Part shown: in pieces, positions 4,303 to 51,519 of the stretch
Layout: each line of letters opens with the position of its first letter
How positions within the stretch are numbered: position 1 is the first letter of the stretch
Origin: a virus
DNA length: 64,000 nt
Virus record (IMG/VR): IMGVR_UViG_3300037010_003037
Span: 62,001-126,000 of that record
Reading direction: 5' to 3' (one strand)
Program-made: the position numbers and the translations under genes
Notes under the pieces: model-generated
Database searches by the model: none
What the model was told of the DNA's origin: nothing
What the model saw: the letters and a program-made list of their open reading frames with translations, nothing else

Positions 4303-4356
4303 TTTGTCTAGATGTTTTTATATTGTCTTTAAAGAAATTAAAGATAGAAAAATAGA

Positions 4357-5298: not shown

Positions 5299-5398
5299 CT
5301 GTATCGAATTAAATTCAAAAACGAATATCAGTAAATATATCATTCATTTTATGATGATGTCTCGAAATTGATTAAACATACAAAAGAAAAGGACTAAA

Positions 5399-6319
5399 AT
5401 GGCTGAACATCAAATGATATTTGCAGGTGATCTAAAAACGCAATATTATGTTCGTCCTTTAGTGCCTAACATAACTACACCTATTCTTAATGTTAATTTA
5501 ATACCCACTATTGAAGAAGCTCTTAAAAAGAACAGAACAGCTTATAGTCCCGCTGATGTAATCTATAAGTCAAATAGTCATGGATATAGATGTGATGAAT
5601 TTGAAGAGACAGATGCCCCCGTAATAGTTTTTGTTGGCTGCTCATATACATTTGGCTCTGGCGTTCCACTAGAAGATGTATGGGCATACCGTGTAGTAAA
5701 AAGATTACGTGAAGAAGTAGATCCAAATATTAAGTATTTTAATATAGCAAAGCCTGGTGCATCTATAGATTCAATGGTTCGTGCCATTTTGGCATTTAGA
5801 AAACACTATAATCCAGATGTAGTGGTTGGTTTGCTTCCGCCGAGATGGCGAATAGAATTGTTTTGTGATCCAGGAGAGATTAAAGATCTTGTGTATCAAT
5901 CAGCAAATTTGCAGAAGTTATTTCGTCTTGCAAATTCATCTGAGGCTGCAAAAGAAACATTACGTAAGTATGAAGAGTTTTTTCTCGGTGATCCTTTCTT
6001 AGACGCATATCGTCTGTCAAAAAATTTAGCTATGTTTGACATGTATAGAGAAATAACTGGTTGCGAAATGATATTGTCTTCATGGCAAAATTATAAAGAG
6101 CTATTTAAACATGTAGGTGATGATTATAGTCATTTGTTTACTCCTTTTTGGATGGACCCTGATATAACTTGGCCAGTAAAAATTATAGGAAAAACAAGCA
6201 AATATGCTTTGGATGGTATGCATCCAGGACCAGCTCATAATGAAGCTTTTGCTCATCTAATGTACCCATTAGTAAAAGCTGCTGTTGAAAAACGAATAGA
6301 GAAAAATAGATTAGAGTGA
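5399..6319 (+). CDS. SGNH/GDSL-type hydrolase, copy 3 of 3
   Basis: A 306-residue paralogue, 100 bp after copy 2. This copy has the best ribosome binding site of the three (AAGGAC ahead of ATG 5399). Nucleophile motif GCSYTFG and C-terminal DGMHPGPAHN are intact, so all three copies look catalytically competent. The central block is identical to copy 1, while the P-R-W-R-I-E-L-F segment and the WMDPDITWPVKI segment match copy 2. Coding sequence is more AT-rich than the replication genes, which suggests acquisition as a moron. Confidence 0.7.
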   Translation: MAEHQMIFAGDLKTQYYVRPLVPNITTPILNVNLIPTIEEALKKNRTAYSPADVIYKSNSHGYRCDEFEETDAPVIVFVGCSYTFGSGVPLEDVWAYRVVKRLREEVDPNIKYFNIAKPGASIDSMVRAILAFRKHYNPDVVVGLLPPRWRIELFCDPGEIKDLVYQSANLQKLFRLANSSEAAKETLRKYEEFFLGDPFLDAYRLSKNLAMFDMYREITGCEMILSSWQNYKELFKHVGDDYSHLFTPFWMDPDITWPVKIIGKTSKYALDGMHPGPAHNEAFAHLMYPLVKAAVEKRIEKNRLE

Positions 6320-15078: not shown

Positions 15079-15666
15079 ATGATTGTAGGACTTTGTGGAA
15101 CACAAGGGACAGGTAAATCCACTATTTTGCAAGCTGCTGAAGCAGCAGGATTTAAGGTAGACTGTACCCAGGTGTCTCGTACAGTGCAGGCAAATCTTGG
15201 ATGGGATAAACTATCACGTGCTGAAGAATCTGTTGAAAACATGATGTTGCTTCAAAATGAGATAGCTAATGTCATGTACGACCGTGATATTAAGTATCTG
15301 GACAGTGATGAGGTTGTATTAGTTGAACGAACCCCAGCTGATGTGTGGGCATACACATGTGTTTGGTGTAAAAGAAACAATGTGTCTATTTCTATAAATC
15401 CATGGGCTGTGGATTACAAACACCGAATGCAGCGCATGTCAACCTTTTACACTCGCTTCATTATTGTTCCACAAGTTGCAGAAATTCCTTTTGTTGAGGA
15501 TCCACATCGAGCTGATTATGAAAGTCGTCAATATGTTGACAATATAATTCGTGATTTTTTAAAACGTGGTGGTTTACCATATAATGAAATGAAAACGATT
15601 AGTCGAGAAGAACGAAGTGCAGAAATTGCCGCTCTTCTCACTCTAATAAAAATGGAAAAAACATGA
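15079..15666 (+). CDS. P-loop NTPase/kinase-like protein (NadR/AAA_28 type)
   Basis: A 195-residue protein with a Walker A motif at residues 7-15 (G-T-Q-G-T-G-K-S-T) right at the N-terminus. A V-L-V-E-R-T-P-A-D segment about 90 residues later sits where kinases of the NadR/AAA_28 group have the Walker B/substrate-binding acid, followed by a Y-E-S-R-Q lid-like region. These proteins are usually nucleoside or cofactor kinases. Near the RNA-repair genes it is tempting to suggest RNA or nucleotide end phosphorylation, but no substrate motif supports this. It overlaps the next gene by 4 bp. Confidence 0.65.
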   Translation: MIVGLCGTQGTGKSTILQAAEAAGFKVDCTQVSRTVQANLGWDKLSRAEESVENMMLLQNEIANVMYDRDIKYLDSDEVVLVERTPADVWAYTCVWCKRNNVSISINPWAVDYKHRMQRMSTFYTRFIIVPQVAEIPFVEDPHRADYESRQYVDNIIRDFLKRGGLPYNEMKTISREERSAEIAALLTLIKMEKT

Positions 15667-16304
15667 AAAAGAAAGTTGTTCAACAAATGCATCAGTTTGG
15701 TTTGTGCATTGACTGGGAAACTAGTGGGGCTGACTTCGGTAAGGATAGTTCACAACATTATCAAGGACTGTCTTTTGGAGCAGTAGTCTTTAAGACTGAG
15801 GACTTTACAATTGTAGAAGAAATGTATCAAGAGATTAAGTTTAACGGTTCTAAATGGGAGTGGTCTGAAGATGCTGAAAAAATTCATGGTCTAACTCAAG
15901 AGTATCTTGAGCAAAATGGTGTGTCACAGGAAGATGCTGCTATCGCACTCGCAGAGCTGATTCTTAAGTACTGGGGTCCAGAAAATAAGGTGATGTTTCT
16001 TGGACATAATCCAGAATTTGATATTCGTTTTACAAATCAACTTATGAACCAGATTGAGATTGAGTTCTCTGTTGAGAAGAAAACTGATTTTACTAGCTGG
16101 ATTCAGTTACATCATGTGGTACTCGATACCTCAGCTGCAGGATTTATTACAACTGGCATTTATAAATCTGATTTGCTTTTTGAAAAGATGGGATTTGCAG
16201 AACGTGATAAACATAATGCGCTTGAAGATGCACGCCAGACAGTGATGACTTGCGCTATTCTTCGTGAATTAACTAAAATCGGTATGGAAAGTGTGGGTCT
16301 ATGA
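15663..16304 (+). CDS. DEDDh 3'-5' exonuclease (DnaQ-like)
   Basis: A 213-residue protein with all acidic motifs of DEDDh exonucleases: ExoI Asp17-x-Glu19 (C-I-D-W-E-T), ExoII Asp120 in G-H-N-P-E-F-D, and ExoIII His184-N-A-L-E-Asp189. Family members remove 3' nucleotides from DNA or RNA; a phage role in host DNA or RNA turnover or in repair is plausible. It is not closely T4 DexA-like in sequence. The start overlaps the kinase-like gene (ATGA at 15663) and its end overlaps the next small gene. Confidence 0.85.
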   Translation: MKKKVVQQMHQFGLCIDWETSGADFGKDSSQHYQGLSFGAVVFKTEDFTIVEEMYQEIKFNGSKWEWSEDAEKIHGLTQEYLEQNGVSQEDAAIALAELILKYWGPENKVMFLGHNPEFDIRFTNQLMNQIEIEFSVEKKTDFTSWIQLHHVVLDTSAAGFITTGIYKSDLLFEKMGFAERDKHNALEDARQTVMTCAILRELTKIGMESVGL

Positions 16305-26105: not shown

Positions 26106-26120
26106 GCTGTTTTTCTTGTA

Positions 26121-26155
26121 GAAACTGGGACCTGTTCAGGTCCCAGTTTCTTTTT
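26121..26155 (+). terminator. Strong intrinsic terminator
   Basis: A perfect 12-bp stem (26121-26132 with 26139-26150), GC-rich toward the loop, six-base loop TGTTCA, then TTTTT. It begins 15 bp after the stop of the 25671 gene. This is the clearest terminator on the plus strand. Confidence 0.92.
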
Positions 26156-26177
26156 AGATATTCATAGTTTATAATAA

Positions 26178-26185
26178 CATAAATA
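26178..26185 (+). promoter_or_regulatory. Late promoter variant (CATAAATA)
   Basis: One mismatch from TATAAATA, just behind the terminator and 84 bp upstream of the transglycosylase gene, so it would restart late transcription for a virion or lysis enzyme. Confidence 0.5.
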
Positions 26186-26268
26186 CAGTTCATTCTGTTT
26201 TTATAAAAGCTCTGCTCTCTATTCAGAAAGTAGACCTACCAACCCTTAAACAAGGAAGGAGATCACTC

Positions 26269-26934
26269 ATGAAACTGAGCAACTATATGCTCTCTTTGGT
26301 CGCTGTCGTTGTAACTTCAGCAGCTGTATTTGCAACAACACATATTATTAGTACTAACCCGACAACAGTTATTAGCATACCCAAAGAAGAAAGAGACGGA
26401 ACTTTTGCAGGTGATAACATTACATTAAAACTTCCAGAAAATTTATCTGACCGGCAAGCAAAACTTCTTTCCATGGCATATCAAATAGCTAAGGAAGATG
26501 GGCATCGATACCCGCAAATTTTGCAGGGAATTATTCTTCAAGAAACTCATGCTGGTGAACTTCGTCATTACAAGGTAGCTGGGCAAGAATTTGGCCTTAA
26601 AACCAATGAACGATACTATGGCGTTGGGCAAATTAAACTTTCAGTTGCAAAGGATGTTCTTAAGCGTTATCCGCAGCTGAAAGATAAATTTAATTTCAAT
26701 ACGGAGATGGATGAAGAAATTATCGCGAAGCTGATTGAAGATGATAGATTTAATCTTACAGTAGCGAGTAAGTATCTATTGATTTTGCGTGATCATGGAT
26801 ATGATACAATAAAACAATTAGCTCTGGCATATAATCAAGGACCTGCTGGTGCTAAACGATTTGATTCAGATACACATCACTATTCGAATGGGGTTATGAA
26901 GTATATTCAAAAGCTTAATGTTGTCAGTAAGTGA
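26269..26934 (+). CDS. Membrane-anchored lytic transglycosylase (SLT-like)
   Basis: A 221-residue protein with an excellent ribosome site (AAGGAGAT). Residues 7-26 are hydrophobic, a signal or anchor segment without an obvious cleavage site. The C-terminal domain has family 1 transglycosylase features: catalytic Glu92 in I-I-L-Q-E-T, the G-V-G-Q-I-K turn near 118-123 and A-L-A-Y-N-Q-G near 185-191. It would cut the peptidoglycan glycan strand from the periplasmic side. It could help lysis (a signal-anchor endolysin) or act in the particle during entry. It stands apart from the minus-strand lysis cassette. Confidence 0.75.
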   Translation: MKLSNYMLSLVAVVVTSAAVFATTHIISTNPTTVISIPKEERDGTFAGDNITLKLPENLSDRQAKLLSMAYQIAKEDGHRYPQILQGIILQETHAGELRHYKVAGQEFGLKTNERYYGVGQIKLSVAKDVLKRYPQLKDKFNFNTEMDEEIIAKLIEDDRFNLTVASKYLLILRDHGYDTIKQLALAYNQGPAGAKRFDSDTHHYSNGVMKYIQKLNVVSK

Positions 26935-26976
26935 GTAAAGAATAGTTTATCATCTATCATCGTTAGAGCGTGTTTC

Positions 26977-27957
26977 ATGTTAAAGTCAGTAACACTTGAG
27001 AGTTTGATTAAGGAACGTCTACATCTTAGACGTTCCCGTACTGGTTGGGATGTTGGAAAGTGTCAGGTTTGCAATGATTATAAGGATCGTGCTGGCTTTA
27101 AATTTGAAAATAACTATGTTGTTTATAATTGTTGGAACTGTGGCACTACTTCTCGTTATGAGGAAGGTAGTGGGCATATTTCAAAGAACATGCGACGCAT
27201 CCTAAATGCGTATGGATTTGACGATACTGAGATTAGTGATGTAGTTAACTCAACATTTTTCAAGCCAATACAAAAGGCAGAAGTTATTACTCTAAGCTCT
27301 ATTTCAAAAATAAACACTAATACTCCTACTGTTAAACTTCCACCAAAATCTTATCGTATAGGGTCAGATGAATTTACTGATTATCAAGAAAAGTTAGTAT
27401 CTTACTTAATCAATCGAAAAATTGATTTGATTAAATATCCATTTTATTTTTCAATGGAAACTCGATTTATTAATCGTGTTATAATTCCTTTCTATCGAAA
27501 TGGGCATTTGATTTATTGGCAGGCACGCTCAATAGACGAGTCTGAAAAGAAACGGTATGATAATTCGCCAGTTTCTCGTAATGCTGTTATTTTCAACTTT
27601 GATCAGCTTTACACATATTCTCCTGGACCATTATTTGTTACTGAAGGGGTATTTGATGCGATGATCGTAAATGGTGTCGCGATTCTTGGAAGTAAGCTAA
27701 ATGATGCAAAAATTGAACTGTTTTCTAAGACTAATCGACGATTAGTTTTTGTGATAGATAAAGATAAGAATGGTAAGCAATTAGCTGAAGACGTTCTTTC
27801 AAGAGGATGGGAGATTGCATTTGCACCAGATGGTGCAAGTGACATCAACAATGCTGCTCAGCGCTTTGGAAAAATTTGGACAATTCAGCAGCTCTTTAAG
27901 AGCATTCCCAAAACAACAAGTGAAGCACAATTAGCAATCAACATAAACTGCAAATGA
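26977..27957 (+). CDS. 61: DNA primase (gp61-like)
   Basis: A 326-residue protein (T4 gp61 is 342). The N-terminal zinc-binding domain has Cys29-x-x-Cys32 and Cys52-x-x-Cys55. The Toprim domain has V-T-E-G-V-F-D-A (near residue 217) and the F-V-I-D-K-D-K-N-G metal site. It makes RNA primers together with the gp41-type helicase encoded just downstream. Its stop overlaps the next start (ATGA). The ribosome site is weak, so primase may be made in low amounts. Confidence 0.88.
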   Translation: MLKSVTLESLIKERLHLRRSRTGWDVGKCQVCNDYKDRAGFKFENNYVVYNCWNCGTTSRYEEGSGHISKNMRRILNAYGFDDTEISDVVNSTFFKPIQKAEVITLSSISKINTNTPTVKLPPKSYRIGSDEFTDYQEKLVSYLINRKIDLIKYPFYFSMETRFINRVIIPFYRNGHLIYWQARSIDESEKKRYDNSPVSRNAVIFNFDQLYTYSPGPLFVTEGVFDAMIVNGVAILGSKLNDAKIELFSKTNRRLVFVIDKDKNGKQLAEDVLSRGWEIAFAPDGASDINNAAQRFGKIWTIQQLFKSIPKTTSEAQLAININCK

Positions 27958-28229
27958 ACAACAAATACGACTATACAAATCTTATTGAACTTTTATTGGT
28001 AGCACCTGAAGATCAACTTGATCCATCAGTACGTTCTTTGATTGAGAAGTGGAACCGACCAATGCCAAAGGCAGTACAAGTTCTTGAGGTGCTTTACAAA
28101 TGTGTTTTCTCTTCACGGTGCTCTGATTTTGTTGTTGGTACACTTGAAACAATCTATGAGCGGGCGCTTGAGAATGAAAATGTAACTCGCGCTGAAATTG
28201 AAAAACTTGTTGCATGGTATGATCTATAA
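27954..28229 (+). CDS. Hypothetical protein between primase and helicase
   Basis: A 91-residue all-helical protein. It overlaps primase by 4 bp, and its stop overlaps the helicase start by one base (TAATG), so it is translated with both. No recognised motif. The placement suggests a primosome accessory protein, which is a guess from context. Confidence 0.55.
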   Translation: MNNKYDYTNLIELLLVAPEDQLDPSVRSLIEKWNRPMPKAVQVLEVLYKCVFSSRCSDFVVGTLETIYERALENENVTRAEIEKLVAWYDL

Positions 28230-29569
28230 TGGAACTTGAAAAACAAAAACTGCTAGTTAGCGCTCTCGCTAGTAATCGCGATCTTATGGCGCTGTGTTCT
28301 AGTATTATCAAACCATCATACTTTGATCCATCTCTCAAGAAGTCAGTTCGCTTCTTGAAAGAATACTTTGAGAAATATAAGGATGTACCTCGTGCTCAAG
28401 TAATACGAGCTGAAACAGGTATTATCCTGGATGATGTTGGAGAGATTAACAAAGCTGAAATGAAGTTCGTCTCTGAGGAGATTGAGACATTCTGCCGTAA
28501 TAGGGCCATGACAGAAGCAATTCTTGCTGGTCCAGAACTTATTCAAAAAGGTGACTTTGGCAAAATCCTGAATGTTCTTAAAGATGCCATTTCAGTAGGG
28601 CTAGTTAAAGACCTAGGAATGGATTATTTCTCTAATCCAGAAGAGCGTTTAAAGAACACCCTTGTTACACAAGCTAGAATATCAACTGGTTGGGCTGAAC
28701 TAGATGATCTTACAGGTGGGGGTCTTAGTAGACAGGAACTTATCATGTTTGCTGCTAACTCTGGTGGTGGTAAGTCAATGACAATGCTGAACTTAGGAAA
28801 AAACCTTCTTGCGCAGGGATTGAATGGTGTTTATATCTCTCTTGAAATGTCAGAGTCAGTAGTTTCTAAACGTCTTGACTCAATGATTTCAATGATTGGG
28901 CAGGATAATCTTCTCAAGGAAATGCAAAAGGTAGCTTCTATCATTGAGAAAGCTAGCGGTAAGATGGGTAAGTTCATCATCAAGCGGATGCCTGAAAACA
29001 GAACTAATATCAATACGATTCGTTCGTACTTGCTTCAACTAGAACAAGCAACAGGGTTTCGCCCCGATTTCATCATTATTGATTACATTGACATCATGGG
29101 AACTACCATGAGCATTTCAATGGATAACTTATTCATCAAGGACAAATACGTTACTGAAGAAGTTAGAAGCTTAGGATATGATTTTGATTGTATCATGATA
29201 AGTGCTTCACAGCTTGGGCGTGGAGCAATTGATGCAGAAAAACTAAGTCAGGCACACATTCAAGGTGGAATTTCAAAGATAAATACATCTGATTATACCA
29301 TCGGTATTAAGCAAGATGATTTGATGAGAGCCTCTGGTGAAATCTACTTTGAAGGGTTAAAGACCCGAAATTCAGCTGGAACTGGGGTACGAAAACTTTT
29401 AGGATGGGATCCAATTTCCCTGAACATTATCTCTCTTCAGAAAAAAGAGAATCAATTACAACTTAACCGCAAATCAAAACCGGCAATTTTGAATTCTAGT
29501 AGTACACTTTTTGAACGAGAAGATGCTACAAAGAAAGATGAAGGCATTTTTAGTTTGATGAACACGTAA
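28229..29569 (+). CDS. 41: Replicative DNA helicase (DnaB-like, gp41)
   Basis: A 446-residue protein (T4 gp41 is 475). Residues 1-120 form the N-terminal helical domain. The RecA-like motor has Walker A A-N-S-G-G-G-K-S (Lys182), the L-E-M-S segment of DnaB motif 1a, Walker B F-I-I-I-D-Y, the S-A-S-Q-L-G-R motif and a C-terminal R-N-S-A-G-T-G arginine region. It unwinds DNA 5'-3' at the fork as a hexamer and couples to the primase. It is followed 14 bp later by a small gene. Confidence 0.93.
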   Translation: MELEKQKLLVSALASNRDLMALCSSIIKPSYFDPSLKKSVRFLKEYFEKYKDVPRAQVIRAETGIILDDVGEINKAEMKFVSEEIETFCRNRAMTEAILAGPELIQKGDFGKILNVLKDAISVGLVKDLGMDYFSNPEERLKNTLVTQARISTGWAELDDLTGGGLSRQELIMFAANSGGGKSMTMLNLGKNLLAQGLNGVYISLEMSESVVSKRLDSMISMIGQDNLLKEMQKVASIIEKASGKMGKFIIKRMPENRTNINTIRSYLLQLEQATGFRPDFIIIDYIDIMGTTMSISMDNLFIKDKYVTEEVRSLGYDFDCIMISASQLGRGAIDAEKLSQAHIQGGISKINTSDYTIGIKQDDLMRASGEIYFEGLKTRNSAGTGVRKLLGWDPISLNIISLQKKENQLQLNRKSKPAILNSSSTLFEREDATKKDEGIFSLMNT

Positions 29570-29583
29570 CAAGGAGAAAACAT

Positions 29584-29832
29584 ATGAAAATTGAAACACC
29601 AACTAATCTAACAATTGATGGTAAAGACTACGCTGTCGCTGACTTTAGTGACAAGGTTAAAAATTTGGTTGCAATTCGCACTGAATGGCAGAATGAAGCA
29701 CAAAAAGAGCGTTTAGCACTTACAAAAACTGAAGCCGCTATCAGAGCTCTTGATGCTGAACTTGCACAACTAGTTAGTGCTGAACTCTCAGAAAAGAATG
29801 GTGCAGCAAATGATGCTGAAATAGCATCATAA
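29584..29832 (+). CDS. Small conserved phage protein (DUF6447-like)
   Basis: An 82-residue protein with an AAGGAG ribosome site. It begins with a short beta hairpin (I-D-G-K-D-Y) and continues with a long charged helix (residues 26-65), likely a coiled coil. Small phage proteins with this hairpin-plus-helix layout are common (DUF6447-type); function unknown. A GC-rich palindrome follows the stop. Confidence 0.6.
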   Translation: MKIETPTNLTIDGKDYAVADFSDKVKNLVAIRTEWQNEAQKERLALTKTEAAIRALDAELAQLVSAELSEKNGAANDAEIAS

Positions 29833-29896: not shown

Positions 29897-29904
29897 TATA
29901 AATA
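29897..29904 (+). promoter_or_regulatory. T4-type late promoter (TATAAATA)
   Basis: Perfect octamer 41 bp upstream of ATG 29946. It fixes that ATG as the start of the large gene, because an upstream GTG in the same frame at 29877 lies ahead of the promoter and inside the hairpin region. Confidence 0.7.
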
Positions 29905-29945
29905 CATTGTTGACTCTTAACCTTCTACTATATCATTATTATTTC

Positions 29946-32900
29946 ATGGCACATCTTCTAAAAAATGTCGTCTTATTTGAAGGCATAACTCATCTTGAGG
30001 ATTTACCACTCGATGAGTTTATTCGCACGGTTGAAACACTAAAAGATAAGATAATTACTGAAAAGTTAGATGGAGCAAACCTTTGGTTTGGTCTAGATGA
30101 GAACGGGCTATTTACATCTAGAGAAGGTAAAACACCAAAGAATTCTCGATTCTATAGTGTTAGTGATTATGCCATGGTGGCGGCATATAATGGATTTAGA
30201 GCAGCCCATTTAGCCCTTGAGGCAGTCGAACCAATCATTCGAAAGTATTTTCAACAGGGTGATACTGCTGAAATTGAAGTTCTGTTTGGTCGTCAACCAA
30301 ACACAGTACCTTATGGAGTTAATGACAAGAATTTCATTGTTATTCTAAGGGCAGTTAATGACACACCAGATGAGCGGATTCAGAAACTTGCAAATGCTTT
30401 ACAAAATAAGGTAGTTACTGTAAAATCAACAGTAATATCTTCACCAGATGGTGAACAACTTCAACAAGAAGATGTAAAAATGAAGTGGGAGTTCACTAAA
30501 ACAACTCCTATCAATACCAAACAGGTTAATACTAAGGAAGCAATGAAGCTTCTTAGTGAACTTAAGATGTATCTAAAGCAGAAGAACAACGTTCTTCCAG
30601 AAATGACGAATGCGCAAGTTGCTGAGCTCAAATTATCATCAGTACCTAAAGATCAAAGAGAAGAAGCTAAAAAAGAACGTGAAAGAGTCAATGCCTACAT
30701 TATGACCAATTTCAAAGGTCCAATAAAAGAGCTATTGCTCAACAACCTTGTTCGTAAAATTAAACCATTCTTACAAGCAAAAGATCTTGACTCATCTGAG
30801 GAAATTGGTGTAGAAGGTGTTGTTGTTCGTGATCCTGTTTCTGGTTCACAGATAAAGATTGTTGATAAAGACGTGTTTACAGCCATCAACTCCTTCAATA
30901 ATGAAGTTCGCAATATTATTTCTGGTCTTGTAAGAACAACAGATCAAGATGCACCTATTGAAGCACGAGGCGGAGTGTTCGGACAAGCAAAAATTCGTAT
31001 TGCTAATCTTCTAGGTGTTAAAGAGCTGGCAGCATCTTCGTCTGCTAAACGCTTTATCAGTAAATTTAAGCAGAATGATCCAATATCAACAGCTGATGCT
31101 TTAGCTAAAAGTCTAAAGATTACAAATCTTTCATCAATTAAAACAAAGATATCAGCTATTCTCAAGAGCACACTTCAAGATATTGATGAAATATTGAATG
31201 ATTTCAAACAAGAAGCTGGAAAGCTTAAACTTAAACTAAAAACTGGAAAAGAAATCGGTATAAGTCCTGAAGTTATGAACCGCACGCTTACCGCATTTGC
31301 GGAAACTAAAGCTGATATCAATAGACTTAACAAATTAGTGCAAAAAAGTAGTACTCCAATAGAACTTATACTGGCTTTGTATGGTAGAACAATCGAATCA
31401 CTCTTTAATGGAGATAAAACCGAAGTGAAAGAATCATTCAACTTAATAAAATCTTTACAAGAAGAAGGTGATAGTGGTAGTGTAGATTCAGGAGCTGCAA
31501 ACAATGGAACAGAAGCTCAACTTTCTAATCCTGCCGGGTATATATCATCTGTTCAAACAGGTGCTATTGCATCTGTGCCATTCAAGCTTCTTAAAGGCTC
31601 GAAGATTGTTCAACGCAGAAAGAGAAATTTCACTCGACCTAAAAAGTTCCCCACACCGCAATCACGTTCAGAGTTTAAGCCGACCAGTGAAGGTGGGGAT
31701 TTTTCACTGATTAAGACTATCAGTGAAGACTGGTCACATGTAAAAGACATGAAATTTGCAACTGATGTTGATGATTCTGCATTAGCTAAATCTGATGTTG
31801 AATTTTCACGGTTAAGAAATAACCTTAATATAAGTGATAACGTTTCAGCGATGGACGTTGACCGTTATTTAGACAAAGCACATGAACTAAATAATGAAGT
31901 TGACAGTATAGTCTTTGGCATGGAAACAGATGATGGTAGTATTGTAAAGGTATGGGTAAATGCGCAAGAGGCAGATAACTTTGAAGCAGCTCTAGCTAAA
32001 TTACTTGGTCAAGAAGATGATGTAGAAAAAGTCATTAATATGTTAGCTGATAAGTTTGATATCGTTGATGTTGAATGGCCAGAAAGCATGCAACATGGAA
32101 CAGAAGACTCTACTGATAAATCTTTAGATAATTATTCACAGGATAATAGTGATATAAAAGATGATGATAATTTTGATTCAAATAAAGAATTGAGTCCTGA
32201 AGATAATACTGAAGACGCCTCTGAAAATGATGACATTTATCTTGGAACAGAATCTGATAAGGATGAAGAGAATGAAGATGAAGAGAATGAAGATGAAGAT
32301 GAAGATGAAGAGAATGAAGATGAAGATGAAGATGAAGAGAATGAAGATGAAGAGAATGAAGATGAAGACGAAGAGAATGAAGATGAAGATGAAGATGAAG
32401 AGAATGAAGATGAAGAGAATGAAGATGAAGAGAATGAAGATGAAGAGAATGAAGATGAAGACGTTTTTCTTGGAACAAAATCTGATAAGGATGAAGATGA
32501 GGAAGAAATTTCTTCTAAAAAGGAAACTAAGTCCAATATAATTGGTAAAGAAAAACCAAAAAGTAAAAAAGCAAAAGACATAAAAAAGGAGTCAGTTATG
32601 TTAACATACGGTCAACGATTTAAGGAAAAAATTCTTTCTGAAGAAAATCAAAAGAAAGATAGAAACAAAAATTATAGGGAAAAGAATGATCTTGAACAAC
32701 AAGAAGACCCTATTGTTATTGCTTCTCGTGCAAAGAATAAGAAGCAAGTTGATGATCTTATAAAATCATTTCCAACGGCGAGCCAAAAAGCAATAATCAC
32801 TTTAATGCTTACACTCGGCGCACCAGCGAACGCGATGAAGATTCATAAAACTGATCTTCGCGAAAATATTGAACCTGTTGCAGAAAAGTATCGCAAGAAC

Positions 32901-33512
32901 AGCGCATTTAGAACCTGGGTTCATAAGCTTATGTCTGCTATTTCGTCAAATTCATCTTCAATGAATGAAGAAGCTGTTCTTGAAGATAGTCATTTTGAAA
33001 GTATGCTTTCTAATAAGTATCAGCGCGTCATTTACTATATTCTTAAAGCGCTTGGTTTACCAGAATCAATTGAAATTACTGCAGCACGTGCCCTTAAAAA
33101 GGGTATTCGTTCAACAGCCGAACTGATTATGGACGATAGTCGTGCACGCTTGTATCTTATGTCTGTTGCTGAACAACTTGGGATAAATGATAAAGTTGAA
33201 AATGATTCTGAACCTTCGGAATACGTCAAAGAAGAAACTGTTTTAGAACATAACAATGTAGAAGAAGCGATTGCTGTGCTAACTGATCTACTTACCACAC
33301 TTGGTTTTGATACTACTCGTAATTCGTCAATAGCTATGCAGGCACAACGAGTTAACGCGCGTAAAGCCTTTTTTAAACTTGCAGCTAACCCAACATTATT
33401 GAAGCGTTTGACTATGATCACTAACATGATTAAAAACAAAATCGCTGATCATACACAATCTCCATCTTCATTTTCATCTCCACAGACTATGAATGATAAT
33501 ATTCAAAGATGA
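29946..33512 (+). CDS. Giant protein: KxDG nucleotidyltransferase (ligase-like) domain plus acidic repeat and C-terminal domain
   Basis: 1,188 residues from ATG 29946. Residues 1-310 carry the motifs of ATP-dependent DNA/RNA ligases: motif I E-K-L-D-G-A with Lys40, motif Ia S-R-E-G-K (58-62), motif III-like E-I-E-V-L-F-G (109-115), motif IV E-G-V-V-V-R (290-295) and motif V with Lys304/Lys308. Residues 310-620 are helical and charged. A domain with A-T-D-V-D-D-S-A-L-A follows (about 600-720), then a Glu/Asp/Asn repeat (about 773-838), then a basic, helical C-terminal domain of about 300 residues. Expression from a late promoter is odd for a repair ligase and suggests a packaged or assembly-linked enzyme. 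Substrate unknown; a third ligase-type gene in this window. Confidence 0.75.
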   Translation: MAHLLKNVVLFEGITHLEDLPLDEFIRTVETLKDKIITEKLDGANLWFGLDENGLFTSREGKTPKNSRFYSVSDYAMVAAYNGFRAAHLALEAVEPIIRKYFQQGDTAEIEVLFGRQPNTVPYGVNDKNFIVILRAVNDTPDERIQKLANALQNKVVTVKSTVISSPDGEQLQQEDVKMKWEFTKTTPINTKQVNTKEAMKLLSELKMYLKQKNNVLPEMTNAQVAELKLSSVPKDQREEAKKERERVNAYIMTNFKGPIKELLLNNLVRKIKPFLQAKDLDSSEEIGVEGVVVRDPVSGSQIKIVDKDVFTAINSFNNEVRNIISGLVRTTDQDAPIEARGGVFGQAKIRIANLLGVKELAASSSAKRFISKFKQNDPISTADALAKSLKITNLSSIKTKISAILKSTLQDIDEILNDFKQEAGKLKLKLKTGKEIGISPEVMNRTLTAFAETKADINRLNKLVQKSSTPIELILALYGRTIESLFNGDKTEVKESFNLIKSLQEEGDSGSVDSGAANNGTEAQLSNPAGYISSVQTGAIASVPFKLLKGSKIVQRRKRNFTRPKKFPTPQSRSEFKPTSEGGDFSLIKTISEDWSHVKDMKFATDVDDSALAKSDVEFSRLRNNLNISDNVSAMDVDRYLDKAHELNNEVDSIVFGMETDDGSIVKVWVNAQEADNFEAALAKLLGQEDDVEKVINMLADKFDIVDVEWPESMQHGTEDSTDKSLDNYSQDNSDIKDDDNFDSNKELSPEDNTEDASENDDIYLGTESDKDEENEDEENEDEDEDEENEDEDEDEENEDEENEDEDEENEDEDEDEENEDEENEDEENEDEENEDEDVFLGTKSDKDEDEEEISSKKETKSNIIGKEKPKSKKAKDIKKESVMLTYGQRFKEKILSEENQKKDRNKNYREKNDLEQQEDPIVIASRAKNKKQVDDLIKSFPTASQKAIITLMLTLGAPANAMKIHKTDLRENIEPVAEKYRKNSAFRTWVHKLMSAISSNSSSMNEEAVLEDSHFESMLSNKYQRVIYYILKALGLPESIEITAARALKKGIRSTAELIMDDSRARLYLMSVAEQLGINDKVENDSEPSEYVKEETVLEHNNVEEAIAVLTDLLTTLGFDTTRNSSIAMQAQRVNARKAFFKLAANPTLLKRLTMITNMIKNKIADHTQSPSSFSSPQTMNDNIQR
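32236..32497 (+). repeat. Acidic-codon repeat array with flanking direct repeats
   Basis: Between 32264 and 32462 the DNA is built from GATGAA and GATGAAGAGAAT units, encoding repeats of Asp-Glu-Glu-Asn/Glu-Asp-Glu. The array is bordered by two 34-bp direct repeats (32236-32269 and 32464-32497) differing at two positions. Having no stop codons in several frames, it gives false open frames on both strands. Copy-number change by slippage or recombination would keep the reading frame. Confidence 0.9.
32598..33512 (+). other. Possible internal start for a separate 304-residue C-terminal product
   Basis: Inside the giant gene, AAGGAG stands six bases before ATG 32598, in the same frame. This is a better ribosome site than that of many real genes here. 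The resulting product (M-L-T-Y-G-Q-R-F-K) would be the basic helical C-terminal domain alone, without the ligase domain and acidic repeat. It may mean a nested gene or a gene fused to its upstream neighbour. Confidence 0.45.
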
Positions 33513-33658
33513 TACTATTTTGAAATATTTGTTAAGTGAAATGTAATACTTGCTTTAATAGCTTCAAATGATATTGCTATTATTGAACAAGAAATGTAAA
33601 TTAAGCTTTAATGTTGAAGAAGCAAATAAATTGAGATTTGATCTTAGTGTAAAATAAA

Positions 33659-34321
33659 ATGAAATTTGCTTACCCAGATCTTCAGGCGACATCAGTTCAG
33701 GGTTTACGCCTTTACGAAACTCCTGAGGGAAACTTTTATCCTTCAATCACTACTATTTTAGGCAAGACTATGCCTAAGGAAAAGGCTGATGCATTGAAGA
33801 AATGGCAGCTTTCTCTGGGTCCTTTGGCTGATAAAAAATCTAAAGAGGCTACCGATAAGGGAACCGCAGTGCATTTACTTGCAGAGCGGTTCCTTAAAGG
33901 TGAAGAGCTTATTAAACCTGGAGAAAAATTTGATACTAATTCCATTAGCTCTTTTAATGGACTTAAATTGAAGCTAAAAAAGGTTGAAGAGGTATGGGGG
34001 CAAGAAGTTGCCCTTTATTCTGACATTATTCACGTTGCAGGTCGATGTGATTGTATTGCAGTATACAAAGGTAAACCATGTATTATCGACTTTAAAACGT
34101 CTGGACGTATTAAGCGGGATGAAGATATTGAAGATTATCGTCTTCAGCTTACAGCATATGCCATAATGCACAATGAGATGTTCGGAACTGAAATTTATGA
34201 TGGTGTAATACTTATGTCATCTGATAATGGTTTTCCACAAGAGTTTAATGTAAATCTTTTAGAATACATTGAACCTCTTATTGAGAGAGTAAATGAATTC
34301 TATGCTAATCTTCAACTATAA
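33659..34321 (+). CDS. PD-(D/E)XK nuclease (Cas4/RecB/exonuclease-like)
   Basis: A 220-residue protein with the nuclease core G-R-C-D (Asp131), then I-I-D-F-K-T-S (Asp144, Lys146), then Q-L-T-A-Y-A on the following helix, the hallmark order of RecB-like nucleases. An upstream H-L-L-A-E (His72) fits the extra metal ligand of MGME1/Cas4-like exonucleases. No cysteine cluster is present, so it lacks the Cas4 iron-sulfur site. Likely a DNA exonuclease in recombination or host DNA degradation. It starts after a 146-bp AT-rich gap. Confidence 0.82.
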   Translation: MKFAYPDLQATSVQGLRLYETPEGNFYPSITTILGKTMPKEKADALKKWQLSLGPLADKKSKEATDKGTAVHLLAERFLKGEELIKPGEKFDTNSISSFNGLKLKLKKVEEVWGQEVALYSDIIHVAGRCDCIAVYKGKPCIIDFKTSGRIKRDEDIEDYRLQLTAYAIMHNEMFGTEIYDGVILMSSDNGFPQEFNVNLLEYIEPLIERVNEFYANLQL

Positions 34322-36688: not shown

Positions 36689-37324
36689 ATGAGAAGCCCT
36701 TTTTTAATTGTACAAGATTTCCTCTCTCCCTTAACCTGTGAGAGAATAATTAATGAAAATACTGTTGCTACTCCTGATGTAGACGAGAATGGTGACCCGA
36801 AAAAGCTGGAGCACCATATTTCTAAATTTGATGCTGAAATAGCAGAACGATTTAGAAATCTTATCCCAACAATAGAAGAGCGATATGATTGTGTATATCG
36901 TGGTTTAGAAAAACCACTTTTACAGTACTATCCAGAAAATTCAAAGGCACCGGCTGAACCACCTGGTTGTGAAAACTCTAAGTACATTCGAAAGAAATGG
37001 GTGATGTATAAAGATGTCGACCTAGTTGGTTTTGTATGGTTAAAGGATTATAATGATAATGTTCCTCTTGATCCACGCCATGAAGTTTTTGGTGGCAAAA
37101 TAGAATTCCCAGCATATAACTTTAGTTTAGTTCCTCAGCGGGGGACCCTTGTCCTATTCCCTGCTGGACCACATTTTATTACAGTGATTTCACCTATTCT
37201 CCTTGGTGATTTATATCAAATCAAACTTAATGTGTGCATTAATTCAAAGAACGGTGGTCGTTGGTTTTATCAACCACAAAACTTCCCCGGTAAATGGAAT
37301 GATTGGTTAGAAGAGTTCATGTGA
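36689..37324 (+). CDS. 2OG-Fe(II) oxygenase-like protein (P4H type)
   Basis: A 211-residue protein with the double-stranded beta-helix pattern of prolyl-4-hydroxylase-like enzymes: F-V-W-L-K-D-Y-N-D, then G-G-K-I-E-F-P, P-Q-R-G-T-L-V-L-F-P and a distal His162 (G-P-H-F-I-T), with a following basic residue (Lys179) for 2OG. The usual H-x-D before the first strand appears here as Asp109-Val-Asp111, so the proximal His is missing or shifted. Such proteins are frequent in aquatic T4-like phages. Active oxygenase or degenerate fold cannot be decided from sequence. Confidence 0.6.
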   Translation: MRSPFLIVQDFLSPLTCERIINENTVATPDVDENGDPKKLEHHISKFDAEIAERFRNLIPTIEERYDCVYRGLEKPLLQYYPENSKAPAEPPGCENSKYIRKKWVMYKDVDLVGFVWLKDYNDNVPLDPRHEVFGGKIEFPAYNFSLVPQRGTLVLFPAGPHFITVISPILLGDLYQIKLNVCINSKNGGRWFYQPQNFPGKWNDWLEEFM

Positions 37325-37360
37325 GCATAAATTATTCTTGAGCTTCAATCTATTTTCTAG

Positions 37361-37389
37361 TTTACTTAAAATTAATTATTGTATATAAT
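37361..37389 (+). promoter_or_regulatory. Candidate sigma70-type promoter
   Basis: TTTACT (37361-37366), 17-bp spacer, perfect TATAAT (37384-37389), 48 bp ahead of ATG 37438 in a 113-bp gap. Would express the glycosylase-like gene on its own. Confidence 0.5.
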
Positions 37390-37437
37390 TTTTAATCATA
37401 GATTGAAAGCGCAACGGTGTATTAGCAAAAACAACAG

Positions 37438-44627: not shown

Positions 44628-45590
44628 TTAAAACGCTAAAATCATTGCTCTTCCTACTGTTGCTGCTACAAATGTTATAAGTATAGTTGATGAATCTATG
44701 ATTTTAACGCTTTCTGGGATTATCTGCTCCCATGATGCATCATACACCGTGACTTGTGCTCGTGTAGATGATAGCGGGTGATTAATCATCCACGACATTT
44801 GTGGAGTAAGTTGAACATGTTCATAACCTTTAGCTAAACCAGATGATTCTGCATCAACTTTAGTATTTAGCGCTTCCAGCGCTTCTTGAACATTGGAAGC
44901 ACCTGGAAGTGAAGTTATTGAAAGAATATCTATATCAGTAGCTTTGTGCCGAAGTGGTGCTGATCCTGCGATATGAGCATCAAAATCATTTTTAAGTGCA
45001 GCAACATCTACACCATTTAGCAATCCACCAAGTGTAAAGTTTTGTGTGGCAATTAAATTGCCATTTTTATCGACACGAAAAACTGGAGTAGTACCAAATG
45101 TTCTTCTGACTGTAATTAAATCAACTATAGGAGTGACGCCTAAATCTGGCTCTATCTTCAATGCTGTTTGTGCACCATTTTTAGGGGAGATAACCCAGTG
45201 ATCACTGTCTTGAACAACTGACTCAATAATTGTTGAACTTCCAAGAACCTCTAGATCACCAGTAATTGTAACCTTACCTGTCTCAGCATCTACCTTAAAG
45301 AATAGATTATCATCAGTATCATCCTTTAGAACAAAATCTTTACCAAGAGTCAACTTAATGACGGCTTCACCGTTGACAGCATTAGTTAAGTCATAAATTC
45401 TTTGTAGTGATAGCCTACTGCTACCACTTGGTGCTGTTGATGCACCATCATCAAATAATAGCCCACGACCATTTACTGTCCATGTATCATGAGAAGTACC
45501 GCCAGCATTAATAATGGACCCATCTAACATGTGCCCAAATATACCATCATTTTCTAAAATAATTAGTTTAACGGGCTGAATTGTCATCAT
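44628..45590 (-). CDS. Fibre/neck-type structural protein with C-terminal recurring domain
   Basis: A 320-residue protein. The central part (residues 65-205) has repeated beta segments of the kind V-T-I-T-G-D-L-E-V-L-G-S and N-G-N-L-I-A-T-Q-N-F-T-L-G-G, typical of phage fibre shafts. A helical stretch, V-Q-E-A-L-E-A-L-N-T-K-V, follows. The C-terminal ~60 residues are the recurring module (W-M-I-N-H-P-L). The start (tandem ATG, M-M) has a weak ribosome site. Probably a short fibre or fibre connector. Confidence 0.65.
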   Translation of the reverse strand: MMTIQPVKLIILENDGIFGHMLDGSIINAGGTSHDTWTVNGRGLLFDDGASTAPSGSSRLSLQRIYDLTNAVNGEAVIKLTLGKDFVLKDDTDDNLFFKVDAETGKVTITGDLEVLGSSTIIESVVQDSDHWVISPKNGAQTALKIEPDLGVTPIVDLITVRRTFGTTPVFRVDKNGNLIATQNFTLGGLLNGVDVAALKNDFDAHIAGSAPLRHKATDIDILSITSLPGASNVQEALEALNTKVDAESSGLAKGYEHVQLTPQMSWMINHPLSSTRAQVTVYDASWEQIIPESVKIIDSSTILITFVAATVGRAMILAF

Positions 45591-45610
45591 AATCGTAAGA
45601 AAAAATTATT

Positions 45611-46675
45611 TTAAGAATGAAGTCTGACAGGCGGAAAAAGATGCATGTAAATGGACTGACGATCGTATACGAATCCTATTTGCTGAGATACCCCTGTAAT
45701 TGGTGGGTTAAGCGTTACTTCTCCAGATGGCCCACAGAAAAGTGGTTTGTTAATTTGCGAATCATCCCAGTTCCATTGTTCATTTCGAACTACACCGCTT
45801 GTAATTACGTGTCCAACATCATCAGCATAGAGATTATCAACAACAATACCACTTACAAAATTAAACTCATTGTTACACGATGCGAGTACAATCTTTCTGT
45901 TACCAGTCATTGAGACTAAGTAAAATGCTGGAATAGATTCTTCAGCCTGTGCTATAGAGATCGCCGAGTCAAATTTTACGTTTAACCCAGAATAGTTAGA
46001 TACAACCAGAACAGTTTCAGTCGTTACGAATTTAGAATTTCTTCCTTGCCGTAGCGGTTGACCATTTGCCGCCGAGAACATAATTGGCCCTGAGACGCAA
46101 TCATCAATTGTTAGGCCAGGATATGTGCCAACATCTAATCCTACTTGAGAGCCATTAACCCACTTAGAATTGCTATAAACATTTAGTGGGTATGGGGGAT
46201 AGAAATTACCACCCTCATATTTTGCAGCAAACACCCGAATTACATCGCGCCAATGTGGGACTGGAGATGTTGCATCATAAACCTTCATAGTTTTGACACT
46301 CATATCGAACCAGTGCGCACCATTAGTGATAGATCCAGTAGGAGCGTCTCCTATGATTGGAGAAATATTTGTCCAACCAAATGTTCTAGCTCCTGTATTT
46401 AGGTTAATGTCCCAGTACAACCACTTTGCTTCAGTAGTCGTCATTAGAGGACCATTATTTGGCCCACCACCACCCCAAGCAGAAACAACTGTTGTGTTTT
46501 CTTCAAAAAGATAATTTGCATCATAATGCGCAAATGTAACTTTCACAGGGCGGGTAAACGAGTTACTTATGACAAGATCAACAGTATCTCCTGCTGATGT
46601 AGTTTTCTGCAGGAACGGAGGCCCTGCTAAAAATGTAGGAGCTAAAATACCCTGTCGAAAGCTAATGTTCTTCAT
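45611..46675 (-). CDS. Virion structural protein, unknown
   Basis: A 354-residue beta-rich protein with many Gly, Asn and aromatic residues, no enzyme motif and no membrane segment. It lies between two fibre-like genes with 20-bp and 8-bp spacing, so it is part of the late tail operon. Likely a baseplate or fibre component; specific equivalence to a T4 protein is not apparent. Confidence 0.55.
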   Translation of the reverse strand: MKNISFRQGILAPTFLAGPPFLQKTTSAGDTVDLVISNSFTRPVKVTFAHYDANYLFEENTTVVSAWGGGGPNNGPLMTTTEAKWLYWDINLNTGARTFGWTNISPIIGDAPTGSITNGAHWFDMSVKTMKVYDATSPVPHWRDVIRVFAAKYEGGNFYPPYPLNVYSNSKWVNGSQVGLDVGTYPGLTIDDCVSGPIMFSAANGQPLRQGRNSKFVTTETVLVVSNYSGLNVKFDSAISIAQAEESIPAFYLVSMTGNRKIVLASCNNEFNFVSGIVVDNLYADDVGHVITSGVVRNEQWNWDDSQINKPLFCGPSGEVTLNPPITGVSQQIGFVYDRQSIYMHLFPPVRLHS

Positions 46676-46683
46676 ACTTTACA

Positions 46684-47283
46684 TTATGATACTGAAATTG
46701 TTAGTGTGTAAGTAATAACTAACTCGCGGTTTGCTGTCTTTAAGATCGGTGAAAAGATAATATGTGTCAACAACAAATTATCAAACGTGAAAAGCCCAAG
46801 TTCATCAAATGCATATTGAGCATTTGGATCAGGGTCACCAGGAGAGTCAGTGAGGTCTTGACCTGATGGTTCGCCAGCAGCAATAGTTGCAGTAACAATT
46901 ACTACTGTTGTTTCACTTGGTGCTGGACTTTCTTGATATGTGACCGAGTTCTCGCTTGGTGTTGATGCAATTGATTCATCAACCTGCTCTTCATATGTTG
47001 GAGACCAAAGATCAGCTGTAGCTCCAGTTACGTTAGGTGCAAGATAAGTAATCTCATTTGATGAGTTAATAGTTGAACCACCATTACCAAGCTTAATCTT
47101 AAAAATCTGATGTTTTCCAATGTTATATGTAGTATCTGGTGGCTCATTAGAAAGCCCACGGGCAATTGCAATTGCCATGTTTTTATTATGGACAGCATTG
47201 TTCTTATCTAACAACACCTCACCAGTGTGCTTGTCAACAATACGAACGTGACCTTTTACTTTGATAGCTGCTTCAGTAGTCAT
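46684..47283 (-). CDS. Virion structural protein, unknown
   Basis: A 199-residue protein with GGAGA ribosome site. N-terminal V-K-G-H-V-R-I-V-D-K-H-T-G-E and L-G-N-G-G-S-T-I are patterns I associate with phage baseplate/tail proteins carrying a short beta domain. A Ser/Thr/Pro/Glu-rich middle (residues 95-125) is probably a flexible linker, and the C-terminus is a beta strand-rich T-Y-T-L-T-I-S. Function unknown. Confidence 0.55.
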   Translation of the reverse strand: MTTEAAIKVKGHVRIVDKHTGEVLLDKNNAVHNKNMAIAIARGLSNEPPDTTYNIGKHQIFKIKLGNGGSTINSSNEITYLAPNVTGATADLWSPTYEEQVDESIASTPSENSVTYQESPAPSETTVVIVTATIAAGEPSGQDLTDSPGDPDPNAQYAFDELGLFTFDNLLLTHIIFSPILKTANRELVITYTLTISVS

Positions 47284-50300: not shown

Positions 50301-51519
50301 CTACACGATCTCCAACAGTGAAGTTAAATGTGTCACCTTGGAAAAATCCTTCAATTGTAGGAATAATAGTGAAGTGAATATCATCGTTCTTGAATGAGCA
50401 ACCATCCTTAAGATCAATATTTTCAATAGTATAAGGATTAACGCTGTCTATCTTAGAAAGATTGTATGTTCCATCTCCATTAAACGTAATGGACCATGAT
50501 GATGGAATACTTACCCTATCAAGAGAACGGGTGTGAATTTCTAATGCAGGTTGATACAGCCGTGATGGTGAACCTGCTCCAGGCATAAATGATGGTTTAG
50601 ACTGTACAACGATAGGGTTTGTTTTAATAATCGACCAAACTTCTTGTGGTGCGTCTTCGGCAACTGTGATCTTATGATATGGCGTTAAAACAAACGTGTC
50701 ACCAATAATAAGTAGATGATCAGTTTGACCTGGTGCTGGTTCAAAGTCGAATTTTAACAGTGGGTGATTAAATGTAGTTCTAAATTGTGATGTTCCAATT
50801 AAGCCATTATATTTGCCTCTAACCTCGACAATACCATTAACATCATCTATGCACGTGAGAGTCCATTCATCATAAGCACCACGCTCTATGTTACGAATGC
50901 ATGCGGCAGCTTTAATTACGTCTTGATATAATAAAATGCCGGTACTTTCAGCAAAAGCTGGTATACTGGAAACGTTTTGTTCAATCCAACGCTGATTGGG
51001 ACGTGTTTCAAACGTGTAAACACCATGACTTAGGAAATAGTCAAATGATTCTTGTTGGTGTTCACCATTCTTACGAACATTTGTTACGCTTGGACCATCC
51101 CATCTTCGTGGGTTAAATGCTCTACCGCCATGATTTTCAATTCCAGGAATCTGTAAATCATCATTTTCACCAGCAATGAATGTTTCTTGACTAACATGGC
51201 TTAAAAACTTATGTACAGATGTAAATGGTACTTGCCATTGTGTTCTATTACCATCAGATATCAGTTCTTTCCACCAGGAATTTGAACGACGTGTTCTTAC
51301 TCCTGGATATGGTGATGATGATTCAAGAAGATCAGCTCCTAGAAATGCTAAAAGTTGATGATTTTCTGTAATTTTTACGTTTACATCATCATTGATTTCA
51401 TATCGTTCTTCAATTTCTGAAAGCTTAGTGTGGTATGGTTTTACGTCTAAAACGTAATTATTCAGAGCATCAGTATGCCCATTTGCTACGACAAGATAAT
51501 GGCTTTTAGTAGAGTTCAT
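47335..51519 (-). CDS. Large baseplate/tail protein with BNR/Asp-box (Ycf48-like) repeats
   Basis: 1,394 residues from ATG 51519, which has GGAG 9 bases upstream and overlaps the previous gene by 14 bp; an in-frame TTG 30 bp further upstream is less likely. In the middle third there are repeated Asp-box units: S-S-D-G-E-H-W, S-N-D-x-x-x-x-x-x-G-x-x-G-T-I-L-R-S, S-T-D-G-G-L-T-W and S-E-D-G-G-I-S-W, each followed by G-x-x-x-x-x-V-G. These build a beta propeller as in sialidases and Ycf48-type proteins. The C-terminus ends with the recurring module (I-L-V-T-H-N-L-N). Its place after the 2,933-residue gene corresponds to the T4 baseplate wedge region; a receptor- or glycan-binding role is likely. 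Confidence 0.7.
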   Translation of the reverse strand: MNSTKSHYLVVANGHTDALNNYVLDVKPYHTKLSEIEERYEINDDVNVKITENHQLLAFLGADLLESSSPYPGVRTRRSNSWWKELISDGNRTQWQVPFTSVHKFLSHVSQETFIAGENDDLQIPGIENHGGRAFNPRRWDGPSVTNVRKNGEHQQESFDYFLSHGVYTFETRPNQRWIEQNVSSIPAFAESTGILLYQDVIKAAACIRNIERGAYDEWTLTCIDDVNGIVEVRGKYNGLIGTSQFRTTFNHPLLKFDFEPAPGQTDHLLIIGDTFVLTPYHKITVAEDAPQEVWSIIKTNPIVVQSKPSFMPGAGSPSRLYQPALEIHTRSLDRVSIPSSWSITFNGDGTYNLSKIDSVNPYTIENIDLKDGCSFKNDDIHFTIIPTIEGFFQGDTFNFTVGDRVENFLVYGSVSGWQPNAKIGEWYWNGKIGFKIPKLKYFASIYRATVSVSPDGNDRTWRQVVSNAQILTSISFNGAFYVAGKDSIVGSSPDGNTWYQEVVPPPPGELIVIVGENGLIATSSDGEHWVRQATGVNSTLHASTVIPNFLVSKTNSGPIVITQTANDKLDNASIVLNSGNELDPSGISIWKVVGGVPQEETVPFWYDTNTDVIYLYDPNFPPTATIPFTVGETVIVSYSLSLKNCIIAVGDDGTILTSTTGFGWVKRLSGTHDSLNGIAWSNDAIIAVGNKGTILRSNDRINWTPVSFGLSVLGTLQQQSVDFNDIIYVKDLNTFIIVGSNGVIIRSTDGGLTWTRVANTWDNPVERDTGILTSVSYGNGKFVAVGPDGFIASSEDGGISWTRYKGNSYNSIAYGNGLFVAVGGSETTSLLFTKIKDVHSIAEPSVYTITFQPPVKPNTVVKYATVVNNIYGYRKVLTLNEVWEDEFCSFKIDYIPGEFEYQAGDTIRVYLAPEYTYAAEGWYDELNYEIPRYDTGIEDITVPWLYNEEYFPLYHSYGSVIFKNGVNDGDRIIIDKALLDVMRFRINDAGKIYPELASVNDWIPLEFRYFDRPTSPASLYDGKTAHFPDLTTQIEAYLCSDPTVKVFTIEQPRYQCTNRNGSATIIFDKNFFKNYVPFNTKFAFRFQPDASYGQNIRVKVTENLRAYARVRLNLFDNIPVLFSFENISGINVVGNLALDDTLNITLIEGGALPIVFGYDEMPYDIFDYDQRYSAIIQHAIEIAPGVYEYDENAQIILPHPINGSLGTFVSEESTETTGTQFLEDFTLVEKLAAPVFTFSWVPGDNPILVTHNLNTLNVSVTVRDGTNNIVNPSAYTVNYLDPNHVLITPFSSLTGTITVTENQVNRVSKMYDFTKVPLEGLLITQNADEYLITHNGPPVTPTLIVESVNNPGVYASPIPNMMPFQQFPSAISLQSFSFTLPSGFTAPFRLRIT

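Follow-up and report, generated by a model that had tools for sequence, protein, structure and literature searches.

A putative head-targeted RNA ligase fused with prohead-core-like proteins in a large T4-like phage

The window analysed here comprises 64,000 nucleotides, positions 62,001 to 126,000 of the 147,697-bp IMG/VR virus record IMGVR_UViG_3300037010_003037, whose source is a large T4-like phage, and it carries an open reading frame (ORF) that we call the giant. We propose, at a probability of roughly 0.65, that the giant is a late-made precursor of the prohead core through which an RNA ligase is loaded into the head and then injected into the host; that it is a head protein processed by the prohead protease we regard as quite likely. 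Its parts are given below in window coordinates, a slash marking a presumed cut.

29946-33512, plus strand: giant ORF, ATG start, 1188 residues
29896-29905, plus strand: T4-type late promoter match (CTATAAATAC), by sequence match
29946-29981, plus strand: candidate capsid-targeting leader MAHLLKNVVLFE with an L-x-E site after E12; hydrophobic-x-E in 9/9 giants
29982-31463, plus strand: RNA-ligase-fold nucleotidyltransferase module, residues 13-506, 55 kDa, from predicted structure and the match to a PA5oct model
30060-30074, plus strand: motif I EKLDG with the predicted nucleotide-accepting Lys40
30813-30869, plus strand: motifs IV (EGVVVR, E290) and V (KIVDK, K304), from the homologue alignment
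31452-31463, plus strand: border site 2, SLQE/ after residue 506; hydrophobic-x-E in 9/9 giants
31464-31727, plus strand: linker peptide (507-594, 9.4 kDa), rich in small residues and then basic, from alignment and composition; border site 3, TISE/ after residue 594, lies at its end and is retained in most relatives
31761-32093, plus strand: alpha/beta core-protein domain (606-716), encoded next to the ligase by a leader-bearing gene of its own in the relatives L023, L024 and L025
32091-32555, plus strand: acidic disordered linker (716-870, net charge -75), varying in length and sequence among relatives
32262-32461, plus strand: 15-bp tandem DNA repeat, 13.5 copies, encoding the Glu/Asp/Asn tract, from repeat analysis
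32631-32642, plus strand: border site 4, ILSE/ after residue 899; present in 7/7 giants having the region
32643-33509, plus strand: helical C-terminal modules (900-1188), AlphaFold helices with predicted local distance difference test (pLDDT) mostly 80-90

The front module almost certainly belongs to the ATP-dependent RNA-ligase superfamily. All the ligase motifs named by the original prediction, EKLDG (K40), SREGK, EGVVVR (E290) and KIVDK (K304), are in place, as is EIEVLFG, and the combination by which the superfamily is recognised, a KxDG lysine with motifs III, IV and V, is found. E39, K40, D42, G43, E290, G291 and K304 are invariant across 16 homologues with identities down to 26%, the KxDG lysine being present in every one. 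That the domain is catalytically dead and has been turned into a structural piece of the scaffold, as its fusion to prohead-core-like modules might suggest, is very improbable in view of this invariance (K40, D42, G43, E290, K304). The AlphaFold2 model of residues 1-530 (pLDDT 81.4, predicted TM-score 0.77) is ordered in the enzyme up to about residue 488, and the nucleotidyltransferase fold expected by the original prediction is present as a predicted RNA-ligase fold. The top 20 Foldseek matches of this model in the PDB are all RNA ligases (best E 8e-4, probability 0.98), modest matches with low global TM-scores of 0.18-0.26; they include fungal tRNA ligase, T4 Rnl1, Rnl2 and archaeal ligases. 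Among the viral models of BFVD, PA5oct gp256 is the best match (E 1e-29), other matches include phage RNA ligases, and the third-best is a 324-residue protein of Atu_ph07 named RNA ligase in UniProt. A replicative DNA ligase was rejected, as no Pfam DNA ligase match was obtained and DNA ligases rank below RNA ligases in the PDB comparison. The giant has motifs I, IV and V and the predicted fold in common with Rnl1, Rnl2 and Trl1, but it is divergent from solved RNA ligases (10-14% identity), with an extra C-terminal helical part and a motif V of the form KIVDK..F...N. Searching PDB sequences, whether with the single protein or with a profile, gave chance matches only, for instance to the acidic tract, and in Pfam and PHROG the full protein fell into no convincing family. 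Both the class of the ligase, RNA and not DNA, and the mechanism proposed below go beyond the original prediction.

The borders of this module emerged from its relatives. Using the N-terminal third, tblastn retrieved PA5oct-type jumbo phages (~31% identity) and Sinorhizobium phage Phosso, whose homologue led on to that of Agrobacterium phage Atu_ph07; in all three the ligase stands alone, in the gene order primase, helicase, small gene(s), ligase. Because the stand-alone PA5oct protein (446 residues) aligns end to end with the enzyme module, the latter spans about 480 residues, and the earlier estimate of an enzyme within the first 310 residues followed by some 880 of other sequence has to be redrawn, the extra part being about 680 residues. 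PA5oct gp256 is thus a homologous enzyme at the same locus, unlike the giant in lacking an L-x-E leader and fused modules. A profile search returned 18 viral contigs, nine of them with the full fusion (1034-1253 residues; one 100% identical to the window gene), and therefore the architecture is conserved. Next after the PA5oct ligase lies gp255 (L003:8315-9334), in which we noted by eye a D..-xxK pattern that could indicate a restriction-endonuclease-like fold.

A more remote connection leads to the cyanophage family DUF6267 (T4-GC71), which matches the ligase profile (hhalign 96.9%, E 1.5e-10, over only 111 columns in the motif I region), shares a K-I-V-D-K/R motif with it and likewise lies after gp41; GC71 differs from the giant in having neither leader nor core fusion. 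Pfam DUF6267 does not match over its whole domain, giving weak E-values in 3/16 members (best 0.0034), and judged by sequence the enzyme is a distant relative of DUF6267, not a member. DUF6267 matches occur in 460 phage records, mostly cyanophages. The cytidylyltransferase-like GC190, a neighbour of GC71, was found in purified S-SM1 virions (PMC3037559), and the Syn33 copy of GC190 begins MKKFSAFLTE/A. In cyanophage S-PM2 (L050:5983-7758) a DUF6267 protein is fused to a cytidylyltransferase-like PF01467 domain, which speaks for GC71 and GC190 being functionally linked.

Our proposal of head targeting rests in part on short motifs whose positions are telling. The protease gp21 of T4 cleaves after L/I-x-E, and the T4 leaders, capsid-targeting sequences (CTS), bring about both the loading of proteins into the head and their injection (PMC9026906). 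Residues 12, 506, 899 and 594 of the giant fit this prohead-protease rule, with L-F-E (residues 10-12), L-Q-E, L-S-E and I-S-E, respectively. When the nine giants are aligned, only columns 12, 453, 506 and 899 show [LIVMF]-x-E in every sequence (the last scored over the seven giants that possess the region). Column 453 lies inside a strongly conserved helix of the enzyme, with Phe at -2, and the other three mark borders, where the leader gives way to the enzyme, where the enzyme stops and where the acidic linker stops. Hydrophobic-x-E at the leader site also occurs in L023, L024 and L026, the stand-alone homologues have no leader, and in the tree the giants form one leader-bearing clade with L023 and L024.

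The same record encodes an S77 (T4 gp21-type) prohead protease (146240-146740, E 5.4e-31). Of 13 records searched, this one and those of related large phages, 12 encode such a protease and 11 a Gp23 capsid protein. Before the mature shell domain, the relatives' capsid proteins carry LQHLQE/TAAAG (G002, G005), YLKE/TAEAG (G003), MLHE/TAAAG (G006) and MLAE/TASAG (XacN1), sites at which, by analogy with T4 gp23, they are presumably cleaved. The giants read LIKSLQE/EGDSGS, LLKSISE/DDAGG and alike, and border site 2 resembles the capsid site LQHLQE/TAAAG.

A further line of evidence comes from phages in which the fused modules are split into separate genes. The profile of the middle domain, built from residues 606-722, matches the gene directly 3' of the ligase in L024 (478 residues, E 3.6e-38, leader MKLLKTINE/), L023 (619 residues, E 1.5e-29) and L025 (340 residues, E 3.7e-17, MSLIEYLMKE/AAASGATGAGAIA, its leader read as MSLIEYLMKE/AAASG). 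It also matches XacN1 ORF347 and a RAS14 protein (~1e-11; KLNE/TAGGG and SLNE/TAGAG), and ORF347 adjoins a gene annotated as head completion protein. Since the middle domain is elsewhere a separate leader-bearing gene, the giant is a ligase gene fused with leader-bearing core-protein genes, the presumed cleavage sites being retained at the joints. Furthermore, the ligase of L023 and L024 ends with a similar site and a basic peptide of 60-70 residues, and parts of the C-terminal modules recur in separate genes of the same two. Between ligase and terminal basic peptide, the L023 and L024 ORFs hold a similar extra module of ~230 residues. The middle domain was not found in PA5oct, Phosso, Atu_ph07 and two cyanophages, and therefore the proteomics of PA5oct cannot speak for it.

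The 65-residue Glu/Asp/Asn tract of the original prediction is real but measures 67 residues (773-839). At this place the relatives have acidic, variable, predicted-disordered sequence and the repeat is not conserved; the tract is a linker that keeps its composition, not its sequence, and the repeat is private to the window genome. A functional domain in the tract was rejected, given the DNA tandem repeat here and the unrelated acidic sequence of relatives. The C-terminus, described earlier as basic and helical, is predicted to be helical, but its net charge over 900-1188 is +3, close to neutral; what is basic in the giant is the linker peptide around 540-575. The proposed structural and family check of this end yielded the predicted helices; none of the phage records matched the C-terminal 306 residues, and no PDB entry matched their predicted structure.

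The late promoter reported earlier holds as well: TATAAATAC lies at 29897, and its TATAAATA core lies 49 nt before the giant ATG. The record has eight TATAAATA sites on the plus strand. Seven of them fall between genes, 44-185 nt 5' of plus-strand ORFs, with only 14.3 kb of the 147.7 kb being intergenic. One such site stands just 5' of the prohead protease gene, where the 9-mer CTATAAATA is also found (window coordinate 84177, beyond the window). The program-made ORF list opens the giant frame at GTG 29877, 5' of the promoter match, and no strong ribosome-binding site is visible 5' of the ATG.

These observations bear on a rival explanation that we judge improbable, namely that the giant is an ordinary cytoplasmic RNA-repair ligase acting during infection, its C-terminal additions forming a tether or chaperone-like tail and its L/I-x-E motifs being coincidental. 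The homologues of Phosso, Atu_ph07 and the L030/L031 phages are indeed stand-alone and leaderless, and those of Phosso and Atu_ph07 adjoin RlaP, the usual RNA-repair pairing (PMC7824862). However, leader and border sites are specific to the fused clade and the closest relatives of that clade, a late-type promoter match precedes the giant, and the fused module is elsewhere a leader-bearing gene beside head genes.

RlaP, which according to the literature partners phage RNA ligases (PMC7824862), adds to the proposal of a packaged ligase. The ligase gene of Phosso and Atu_ph07 is followed by one for a Pol-beta-type nucleotidyltransferase, which from its motifs and context we assign to the RlaP type. 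A homologue is encoded in the window's record outside the window (record coordinates 15330-16214, plus strand; E 1e-19 vs Atu_ph07) and begins MLTFKTFLLLE/GG, a candidate T4-like capsid-targeting leader. Its relatives start with MITFKQFLLE/GG, MINFKTFLLME/GG, MRSFKQFLLQE/GG and MITFMGMLLVE/GG, following the form M.xF..FL..E/GG, which does not occur in Atu_ph07, Phosso and PA5oct; RlaP of Phosso, Atu_ph07, G008 and G009 starts straight at MGG. In MITFKQFLLE, residues 4, 7 and 8 are hydrophobic and residue 10 is Glu, and these are the positions important for the T4 IPIII leader (PMC9026906). L026 carries ligase and RlaP as a single fusion, with LLKE/GG at the joint. The PA5oct homologue, gp253 (match 153210-153557), is annotated 'structural protein, ESI-MS/MS'. 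Thus, the suspicion of a virion-packaged or assembly-linked enzyme gains computational support from the conserved leader and T4-type border sites, the S77 protease of the record, the modules that are elsewhere separate leader-bearing genes and the virion-detected homologue of the partner.

Among the weaker structural matches is an Rnl1 protein annotated 'tail fiber attachment catalyst', and T4 Rnl1 (gp63) is known to promote tail-fibre attachment also. With the late promoter match and the head-module fusion, this could speak for a virion enzyme that serves assembly and is not injected, either by nick sealing or joining in packaging or as an assembly catalyst like gp63. We deem such a role decidedly unlikely, as the closest folds are RNA ligases and not DNA ligases, the fused modules suggest the head and not tail fibres, and the RlaP partners suggest RNA repair.

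Returning to the proposed prohead-core precursor, the leader (1-12) and/or the fused core modules would pull it into the prohead scaffold, where the S77 protease would cleave after L/I-x-E at residues 12, 506, 594 and 899, yielding the 55-kDa RNA ligase (13-506), the basic peptide and two core proteins, one acidic and the other helical. Once freed, the ligase would remain in the head and enter the host with the DNA. Together with the similarly tagged RlaP-type nucleotidyltransferase it may then mend RNAs that host nucleases have cut, tRNAs being the likeliest, ahead of phage gene expression; that the ligase is such an injected RNA-repair enzyme we favour slightly.

Several observations weigh against this model. 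Shuffling of alignment columns gave a mean of 1.5 conserved columns and at least four in 13 of 300 shuffles, and so the column count alone is only mildly unusual, the positions at the borders being the stronger evidence. The leader motif is short, and in 13/139 ORFs residues 6-16 contain a comparable tetrapeptide, against 5-13/139 when later windows are counted. This genome-wide count is not significant, and therefore we place the weight on border conservation and split genes. The record stops before any major capsid gene. The window protein scores 19 bits against Pfam RNA_ligase, below the gathering score of 27; in favour of the fold, on the other hand, the family matches 15/16 members, if weakly, at E<=1 (best 2.5e-6), and relative L026 exceeds the cut-off with 27.7 bits. 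Finally, PA5oct gp253 is virion-detected though leaderless, which makes the leader not the sole route into the virion, and the leaderless ligase gp256 carries no mark of mass-spectrometric detection.

The model is best compared with the T4 internal head proteins and Alt, which are CTS-tagged, cut by gp21 and injected (PMC9026906). The giant likewise has an L/I-x-E N-terminal leader, an S77 protease in its record, a late-promoter match and an enzyme as putative cargo; it differs in what would be carried, namely an RNA ligase placed at the front of a long precursor with several sites and core-like proteins. It is also reminiscent of the polyvalent and MuF-fused effectors (Iyer, Aravind), enzyme-bearing proteins of several domains for which injection is presumed (PMC5512222, PMC9503650). 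In contrast to MuF effectors, no MuF or portal domain was detected in the giant by Pfam or PHROG, and delivery would use prohead-core targeting and protease sites instead.

Other proteins of the record bear leaders or leader-like starts. A cytidylyltransferase-like, GC190-like protein (record 131650-132351, minus strand; PF01467, E 1.5e-6) starts with MDEQLQLTQLFE/N. Two proteins look ADP-ribosyltransferase-like by eye (YRG, S-T-S, E-x-E), one of 572 residues (record 45267-46985, plus strand; MLLKLLLLQE/A) and one of 218 (record 36752-37408, minus strand; MKVAELFE/A); neither has Pfam support and the longer one is without relatives, and as leads only they are possible Alt-like injected enzymes. 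A 421-residue protein with a GTRWCTA motif (record 32250-33515, minus strand) starts MFQLLSFAE/S, and an AAA-ATPase-like protein (record 26118-27611, plus strand) MKLIDLCE/S. Within the window the neighbours of the giant are:

26977-27957, plus strand: DNA primase, conserved gene order
28229-29569, plus strand: DnaB-type replicative helicase, conserved gene order
29584-29832, plus strand: 82-residue gene 5' of the giant, weak match (E 0.083)
33659-34321, plus strand: phrog_298 exonuclease 3' of the giant, conserved gene order

By position only, the 82-residue gene is the counterpart of a small 'virion structural protein' in PA5oct and Atu_ph07. Elsewhere in the window lie three tandem ORFs of ~305 residues (3388-6319) with similar N-termini (KLFSGDL, KLFTGNL, IFAGDL), apparently paralogues, and a single ORF of 2933 residues (51506-60307, minus strand) in a putative tail region.

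The known phage RNA ligases are synthesised in the course of infection and repair tRNAs that host anticodon nucleases have cut, and the known injected phage functions include Alt, IPI, vRNAP and Tad1. A report of a head-packaged phage RNA ligase was not found in the literature, of which the open-access part only was covered. The border sites define exact, testable cleavage positions, and the link between DUF6267 and the ligase superfamily offers a first functional lead for a marine-phage family of unknown function. We lean, if only just, towards the view that virions of this T4-like branch carry a pre-made kit, ligase and RlaP each with a capsid-targeting leader of its own, that is injected and counters RNA-cleaving host defences at once, one clade having fused its ligase with prohead-core proteins into a protease-cut polyprotein. 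If so, a virion-delivered ligase and its partner would abolish the lag during which anticodon-nuclease defence acts, and RNA repair would join Alt, IPI, vRNAP and Tad1 among the injected functions.

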